Assembly: GCF_000591035.1 (NCBI RefSeq) | Contig: NC_022521.1 | Location: 62,001 to 126,000 of the forward strand | Reading direction: 5' to 3' | Origin: Aeropyrum camini SY1 = JCM 12091 | GTDB taxonomy: Archaea; Thermoproteota; Thermoprotei_A; Sulfolobales; Acidilobaceae | DNA length: 64,000 nt | In this document: positions 23,331 through 24,597 of the stretch, piece after piece | Position numbering within the stretch: the first letter of the stretch is position 1 | How the letters are laid out: every line of letters starts with the position of its first letter | Notes under the pieces: model-generated | What the model saw: only the letters and a program-made list of their open reading frames with translations | The model's database searches: none | What the model was told of the DNA's origin: nothing | Made by a program: the position numbers and the translations under genes

Positions 23331-24122
23331 ATGCAGCTAGCCAGCTGGAGGCTTCTAGCTAGGACGATAAAGAACGTGGACGTCGTGATAGAGGTAGTGG
23401 ACATCAGAGATCCGATGGTGACTAGGAGCAGGCGGGCTGAGAGGATGGCGGAGGCCCTTGATAAGAGTCTGCTTATAGTTCTCAACAAGTCCGACCTGGT
23501 TCCTCTCAGGGTTGCGGAAAAGTGGGCCAGGATTATAGAGGGGATGGGCTTCGACGTGATATACGTGTCCGCGAGGCACAGGCTCAGCACCAGGAGGCTG
23601 AGAGGCTATATAAAGCACCTAGCCGACGTAAAACCGTTTTCAGCAGGGGTAATAGGTTTCCCGAAGACGGGGAAGTCCAGTGTCATAAACGCTCTGAGAG
23701 GCAGGAAGGGCGCTCCAACGAGCCCCATACCAGGGAGCCCCGGCTATACAAAGGGTTTGCAGCTTCTAAAGATAGAGCCAGGCTTCTACATGGTAGACAC
23801 GCCTGGGGTCATACCGGTCGAGGGGGGCTGGCCTGAGTCTATAATAAGAGGGAGGAGCCCCGAGGACCTTGCAGACCCGGTTCCGCCTGCAGCAGCATTA
23901 ATAGAGAAGATTTTGAGGTACAATAGGAGGGCCTTCCAGACCGCGTACGGCATATCCGCCCAGGATCCCTACGAGATAATGGAGAGGTTGGCGATAAAGA
24001 GAGGCTGGTTCTACAAAACTACTAAGGAGCCGCTTATCGAGGAGGCTGCAAGAACGATAATAAGAGACTATCATAAAGCGAAGATACCATTTTACGTGCC
24101 CCCAGAGGAATTCACCGGCTAG
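23331..24122 (+). CDS. Circularly permuted GTPase (YlqF/YRG family)
   Basis: A 263-residue GTPase with permuted motif order G4-G5-G1-G3: NKSD (52-55), SAR (80-82), GFPKTGKSS (109-117) and DTPG (156-159). This order defines the YlqF/YawG/Nog2-like family, whose bacterial and eukaryotic members act in large ribosomal subunit assembly. A basic C-terminal domain (residues 190-255) likely binds rRNA. A probable box C/D guide RNA follows 25 bases after the stop, a sensible neighbour for a ribosome-assembly factor. Confidence 0.9.
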   Translation: MQLASWRLLARTIKNVDVVIEVVDIRDPMVTRSRRAERMAEALDKSLLIVLNKSDLVPLRVAEKWARIIEGMGFDVIYVSARHRLSTRRLRGYIKHLADVKPFSAGVIGFPKTGKSSVINALRGRKGAPTSPIPGSPGYTKGLQLLKIEPGFYMVDTPGVIPVEGGWPESIIRGRSPEDLADPVPPAAALIEKILRYNRRAFQTAYGISAQDPYEIMERLAIKRGWFYKTTKEPLIEEAARTIIRDYHKAKIPFYVPPEEFTG

Positions 24123-24146
24123 AAGCTCCACAGGGGGGTGGAGAGA

Positions 24147-24221
24147 GCTAGTGATGACCCGTGCAGGCTCTGAGGTTACGCCCGCACCGATGAAGAGTCT
24201 GTGGGACTACCCTCTGAGGCA
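24147..24221 (+). ncRNA. Box C/D sRNA candidate
   Basis: In the gap after the GTPase gene the plus strand shows a perfect C box GTGATGA (24151-24157), a 12-base guide, D' box CTGA (24170-24173), a C'-like CGATGA (24188-24193), and D box CTGA (24214-24217). The C-to-D' spacing of 12 is canonical; the C'-to-D spacing of 20 is long. The bases just before the D box (GGGACTACCC) are complementary to GGGTAGTCCC, a conserved stretch of archaeal 16S rRNA near helix 24 as I remember it. It would direct 2'-O-methylation with L7Ae, Nop5 and fibrillarin. Confidence 0.6.
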
Positions 24222-24225
24222 TAGT

Positions 24226-24597
24226 CTAACCCCTCCTTACGCATCTCCTGTTCATAGCGACGGCTGCCATGAGGGCTAGCACAGTTAGTGCTAGAAGTAG
24301 GGGAAAGTGGGGTATAGCGAGATCGCCGAGCGTGCCGGTGCTGGTAACAACCGATCGGGACACTCTTCCCGCCGCGAATGCACTGGCCAGGGCTATAACC
24401 GTCGGGCTAGCCGGGCTCCTGTAGACTATAGCTGGCGCGGCTAGCAACACAGCATATGCTAGATTCTCCACTAGTATGAACACGGGGATTCTTGGACCGC
24501 TAAGTAGGCTGTTCAGATCGAAGGCCACAAAACCGAGAGCCAGAAGTATAGCCAGCGCCCTGGCTGCCATATCTCCCTTGTTTAAACCCGTCGCCAC
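24226..24597 (-). CDS. Small membrane protein, unknown
   Basis: A 123-residue protein with three or four hydrophobic helices (about residues 12-32, 38-58, 64-80 and 97-115) and a short basic C-terminus. No motif is recognised. It lies downstream of herA on the same strand, 43 bases away, so it may be read at the end of the mre11-rad50-nurA-herA message, though nothing links it to repair. Confidence 0.55.
   Translation of the reverse strand: MATGLNKGDMAARALAILLALGFVAFDLNSLLSGPRIPVFILVENLAYAVLLAAPAIVYRSPASPTVIALASAFAAGRVSRSVVTSTGTLGDLAIPHFPLLLALTVLALMAAVAMNRRCVRRG

Follow-up and report, generated by a model that had tools for sequence, protein, structure and literature searches.

Box C/D sRNAs of archaea were reportedly the subject of studies by Omer and by Gaspin in 2000. 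There is a pan-archaeal set of these RNAs compiled by Dennis et al. 2015 (PMC4644070), and the pathway by which they are assembled and carry out methylation is established (PMC7994747, PMC4644070). Most archaeal C/D RNAs are made from longer precursors, often at the 3′ ends of ORFs, and their genes are commonly located at the end of an ORF or within 25 nucleotides of it (PMC7994747). In the genus Pyrobaculum, the sRNAs that guide modification of a tRNA carry another guide for which there is no target (PMC7994747).

The element described here is located on the forward strand at positions 24147 to 24220 of the window, which is the whole 64-kb stretch of DNA analysed, taken from a genome of 1,595,994 bases (Aeropyrum camini, hereafter G000). 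It has in common with archaeal box C/D sRNAs (PMC4644070, PMC7994747) the presence of four boxes, two guides, N+5 complementarity, a short terminal stem and a length of about 70 nucleotides, as well as its location at an ORF 3′ end and a hyperthermophilic crenarchaeal host that possesses fibrillarin. It differs in having 20 nucleotides between boxes C′ and D, and a D′-C′ linker of 14 to 22 nucleotides that is capable of forming a hairpin. On the basis of its sequence features, we assign this element as a box C/D sRNA gene, about 70 nucleotides long, that would guide methylation of tRNA-Leu and 16S rRNA, and we estimate the probability of this assignment to be roughly 0.9.

Boxes, stems and conservation

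An initial annotation had proposed a canonical-looking box C/D sRNA in which GTGATGA, 12 bases and CTGA are followed by CGATGA, 20 bases and CTGA. This description is correct to the base (24151 to 24217, forward strand), and the first half is indeed a perfect C/D′ unit, wherein box C fits RUGAUGA, 12 nucleotides (CCCGTGCAGGCT) follow, and box D′ is CUGA. The features of the element and its two neighbours are as follows, where G002, G003 and G004 are related genomes.

23331..24122, + strand: circularly permuted GTPase gene, the upstream neighbour (Pfam MMR_HSR1 and RsgA_GTPase); possible source of a precursor transcript
24147..24149, + strand: 5′ arm of the terminal stem, GCU, pairing with GGC at 24218-24220
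24151..24157, + strand: box C, GUGAUGA (consensus RUGAUGA); identical in G004, GGGATGA in G002 and G003
24158..24169, + strand: D′ guide CCCGUGCAGGCU, complement of tRNA-Leu GGCCUGCGUGGG
24170..24173, + strand: box D′, CUGA; CUGA in three of four genomes, CGGA in G002
24174..24187, + strand: D′-C′ linker, 14 nt; GGU/ACC closure possible between 24174-24176 and 24186-24188
24188..24193, + strand: box C′, CGAUGA; the preceding base is C, the first two bases depart from RUGAUGA, and the k-turn core GAUGA is intact
24194..24201, + strand: spacer between C′ and the D guide, AGAGUCUG; sequence and length differ among genomes
24202..24213, + strand: D guide UGGGACUACCCU, complement of 16S rRNA GGGUAGUCC(U/C)G
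24214..24217, + strand: box D, CUGA; invariant in all four genomes
24218..24220, + strand: 3′ arm of the terminal stem, GGC, pairing with 24147-24149
24226..24597, − strand: small convergent ORF, function unassigned, given for context; no Pfam match

The boxes expected at the ends of a C/D RNA, RUGAUGA and CUGA, are present, and the k-turn core is kept in all four genomes. The internal boxes are also present, with a perfect D′ and a C′ that reads CGAUGA around the GAUGA core. The guide between C and D′ falls within the range of about 10-12 nucleotides that is characteristic of the class. The C′-D interval is outside the typical range, and its conserved pairing part comprises the 11-12 nucleotides adjoining box D. 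A terminal stem of 3-5 base pairs is possible in each of the four genomes, and this stem is not clearly visible in single-sequence MFE folds.

The element is found behind the orthologous GTPase gene in G004, G002 (Aeropyrum sp.) and G003 (Acidilobaceae archaeon), and thus the conservation in relatives that the initial annotation had named as a check is observed. Both the boxes and the guides are conserved, as expected of a member of the class. In an alignment of the four genomes the guides and box D stand out as invariant blocks and the linker has diverged; the boxes other than D are mostly kept, and there is one degenerate internal box in G002 (D′, CGGA) and one in G003 (C′, UAUGA). No part of the element is better conserved than the D-guide core GGGACUACCC, which is unchanged in the four genomes. 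Between G000 and G004, 9 of 67 nucleotides differ by a count made by eye, and neither the four boxes nor the D-guide core contains any of them. Both stems retain the potential to pair through base changes: the terminal stem is GCU/GGC in G000, GGCU/AGCC in G004 and CGG/CCG in G002 and G003, and the linker closure goes from GGU/ACC to GGCCCAG/CUGGGCC, forming a hairpin of 5 to 7 base pairs in G002 and G003.

A sequence model made from the four aligned rows picks out these four elements and no others among 60 related genomes (E values from 6e-24 to 6e-20), although these matches are the rows that built the model and are matched by construction. With strict filters, the model yields no further copies in G001, G005, the family or the order. 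The element is absent behind the GTPase gene in G005 and in the other families examined, and the gene is lacking in G001 and G005, as in the remainder of the family. The two-guide pattern was also sought in the genomes of 84,980 species, in a scan that may omit the window's own genome and very near ones, and the matches obtained were G002 and G003 only.

Guides and their predicted targets

The best match of the D guide in the rRNA genes is to 16S CGGGUAGUCC (positions 763-773), which is located 3′ of the 790 loop. The pairing involves 9 Watson-Crick and 2 G-U pairs in G000, and 10 Watson-Crick pairs and 1 G-U pair in G004, whose 16S reads GUCCC at the target. Counting upstream from box D, the fifth base of the guide is paired with U766 of the 16S gene in the N+5 register, and we take U766 to be approximately U801 in E. 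coli. Thus, the D guide is predicted to direct formation of Um at U766. Shuffled D guides of the same composition match rRNA equally well in 11 of 300 cases. As a separate matter, the 16S gene (L031, 1650 bases) and 23S gene (L032, 3856 bases) of G000 exceed the archaeal models (1478 and 2987) in length, and this points to the presence of rRNA introns; such introns are known in Aeropyrum.

The 16S guide followed by CTGA is found in 10 of 117 genomes of the order, versus 1 for a reversed-pattern control. Five of the seven matches outside the genus look C/D-like, with a box C upstream. Another two, L089 and L093, are inside long ORFs and were set aside as probably due to chance. The five C/D-like loci outside Aeropyrum (L087, L088, L090, L091 and L092), in which the 16S guide GGGACTACCC adjoins CTGA, are intergenic, and three of them have the D′ guide TCCCNNCGGCT in common. 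The spacing from C′ to D in the 16S-guide C/D-like loci of other families is about 13-18 nucleotides, as read by eye.

The unusual second half of the element raises the possibility, tentative at best, that this is a genuine C/D sRNA with a single working methylation guide, most likely D′ with its 12-nucleotide spacing, wherein the C′/D half would be inactive or would serve as an RNA chaperone on 16S rRNA. Work on C/D spacing by Tran et al. in 2005 is said to favour this reading. Box C′ is degenerate, most so in G003, and the C′-D interval departs from the typical 10-12 nucleotides (PMC7994747). However, the block that is best preserved in the entire element is the core of the very guide that would be idle, and the same D guide with its CTGA is present in C/D-like loci of other families.

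The D′ guide pairs over 12 nucleotides with the junction of the variable arm and T stem of tRNA-Leu, where the genes with UAG, GAG, CAG and UAA anticodons carry GGCCUGCGUGGG. There are 9 Watson-Crick and 3 G-U pairs in G000, and 10 and 2, respectively, in G004. The N+5 base pairs with a U located two nucleotides before C48, at about position 46 in the foot of the variable arm, and the predicted product is therefore Um at approximately U46 of these four tRNA-Leu genes. This tRNA-Leu target is present in all six genomes of the genus. The tRNA-Leu(CAA) of G000 (L076) has G at the predicted site rather than the U of the four other tRNA-Leu genes, and the tRNA-Leu(CAA) genes of G002 and G003 retain U. 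We rejected rRNA as the target of the D′ guide, since the best pairing (7 Watson-Crick and 1 G-U) is no better than that of shuffles. With these assignments, N+5 complementarity is seen for both guides, to 16S rRNA for D and to tRNA-Leu for D′.

Shuffled D′ guides match a tRNA equally well in 14 of 300 cases for G000 and in 3 of 300 for G004. The guide-target matches by themselves are thus only modestly better than shuffles, and are suggestive rather than proof. The distribution of the guides in other genomes is more informative. The tRNA-Leu guide is found between GATGA and CTGA in 11 of 214 genomes of the order and in none for the control. Two of these genomes are in the genus and nine belong to other genera spread across five families, where the loci have C/D-like second halves with unrelated partner guides. 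Each of the nine genomes from outside the genus has the target CCTGCGTGGGTTCAA, and nearly all of the target loci checked are called as tRNA-Leu. A search with one fixed 10-mer, complementary to the D′ guide, gave six matches in the genome (the sRNA and five others), none of them at called tRNA positions. We regard the recurrence of the guides in unrelated loci as the strongest evidence, as judged from sequence comparison, that both guides are likely to be real.

These data also bear on the idea that the RNA, while a genuine C/D sRNA, acts through its D′ guide on another target or on none, such that the match to tRNA-Leu is a coincidence. The frequency with which shuffles of the A. camini guide equal some tRNA match is in line with this idea, and orphan guides are common (PMC7994747). 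Nevertheless, the D′ guide and its pairing have been maintained in the four genomes, and CCACGCAGG, the version with full complementarity, is found again between boxes C and D in several target-carrying families, with 0 matches in the control. We therefore consider a coincidence to be unlikely.

Genomic setting

As stated in the initial annotation, the element is situated between the stop codon of a permuted GTPase gene (24122) and a convergent gene (24226, − strand), and it appears to have no coding sense. There is no ORF of at least 60 amino acids over the element on either strand, and its length differs among genomes by numbers that are not multiples of three, which indicates that the stretch is not coding. 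The permutation of the GTPase is evident from the order of its motifs, wherein NKSD precedes GFPKTGKSS and DTPG. A CTCCAC/GTGGAG hairpin is located at window positions 24127-24144, between the GTPase stop codon and the sRNA, and it is not kept in G004.

The location of the element fits the known contexts of C/D genes (PMC7994747). The identity of the neighbouring gene, a probable ribosome-biogenesis factor that had been offered as a clue to function, proved to be uninformative. The association is seen in just four genomes, all from one genus, and is probably incidental. A functional tie to the GTPase was rejected on two grounds: in the genomes examined beyond these four there is no such RNA behind the GTPase gene, and the other loci bearing the 16S guide are not near this GTPase gene.

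A position directly behind one ORF and ahead of a convergent ORF could also be occupied by a conserved DNA or mRNA element, such as a 3′ UTR, a terminator or a k-turn binding site, that mimics a C/D RNA and gives rise to no RNA of its own. L7Ae is known to bind k-turns in mRNAs as well (PMC5539422). However, we consider this explanation very improbable, since what is conserved is the boxes and guides and not a hairpin with T after it, each of the two guides is also seen in unrelated loci, and the variation in length speaks against any coding variant of it.

Finally, although the C/D′ half by itself could be a product of chance (about 1 window in 4; RTGATGA-N9-15-CTGA has its sole match on either strand of the window here, with 0.3 expected), the full four-box pattern (1 in the real window versus 0 in 60 simulated first-order Markov windows) and its conservation in three relatives could not, and a fortuitous arrangement of GATGA and CTGA in a G+C-rich spacer therefore has a negligible probability.

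Proposed function and comparison with known systems

Transcription, RNP assembly, methylation and processing are steps that we infer from the observed boxes, conservation, complementarity and guide recurrence. In the proposed mechanism, C would pair with D and C′ with D′ to form kink-turns that are bound by L7Ae. L7Ae, Nop5 and fibrillarin assembled on the two k-turns would then carry out ribose 2′-O-methylation of two target nucleotides, each lying opposite the fifth guide base counted upstream from D′ or D. A gene for fibrillarin is present in the genome (E value 1.3e-104). The sRNA is probably released by trimming of the GTPase mRNA in its 3′ UTR. This route seems likely because in G002 the GTPase stop codon is only a few bases before the start of box C, so that hardly any space remains for a separate promoter.

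A more far-reaching explanation is that both guides are functional and under selection and that they act on different classes of RNA, with one directed to the foot of the tRNA-Leu variable arm and the other to 16S rRNA beside the 790 loop. In addition, the element would be part of an order-wide set of mobile guides, in which the tRNA-Leu guide has been recombined with different partners in different families. We hold this fuller explanation with about evenly divided confidence. The points against the assignment as a C/D sRNA gene with these two targets are the 20-nucleotide C′-D interval, the off-consensus C′, the degenerate C and C′ or D′ boxes in G002 and G003, the modest advantage of each guide-target match over shuffles, the lack of the gene in G001, G005 and other members of the family, and the G at the predicted site of tRNA-Leu(CAA) in G000. 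The designation as a canonical-looking C/D sRNA holds for the conserved boxes and guides, the N+5 targets and the recurrence of the guides, but not for the spacing of the second half or the sequence of its C′ box.

The covariance and guide searches proposed in the initial annotation gave plausible N+5 targets for both guides and no match to the element in Rfam at the gathering threshold. There is weak, box-based likeness to sR2 (RF01139, 14.2 bits), sR3 (RF01133, 16.1 bits) and sR47 (RF01131, 11.7 bits), and membership in these families was rejected because the scores are far below the respective gathering values of 42, 41 and 40 and the guides differ. The assignment of the element to the ordinary C/D class, as a new example of it, is well supported; it does not represent a new kind of system, and it is not found in Rfam. 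Its peculiarities, the mixed pair of guides and the long C′-D interval, are mild. Genome annotations of archaea badly under-represent C/D sRNAs. The analysis provides two specific methylation predictions that can be checked, and brings to light a tRNA-Leu guide that recurs across the order.

A C/D guide for G47 of tRNA-Leu(UAA) has been predicted in P. furiosus (snoRNAdb, cited in PMC7668247), and methylation of this nucleotide was not seen in mass spectra (PMC7668247). The resemblance to the D′ guide concerns the site, in that both address the same tRNA at the foot of its variable arm, and the target in P. furiosus is the neighbouring nucleotide. A further resemblance is found with the C/D-like loci L131, L132 and L135-L141, which are distributed over five families and have the same guide core, CA(C/T)GCAGG, the same D/D′ register and the same tRNA-Leu target. 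The second halves of these loci differ, and in some of them (L131 and L132) the guide seems to be located at D instead of D′. Two of the loci, L137 and L138, are directly behind a tRNA-Phe gene. In comparison with the Pyrobaculum C/D sRNAs, the element carries one rRNA guide and one tRNA guide, and if both of them act, it would be a counter-example to the idle second guide that has been reported for tRNA-directed sRNAs.
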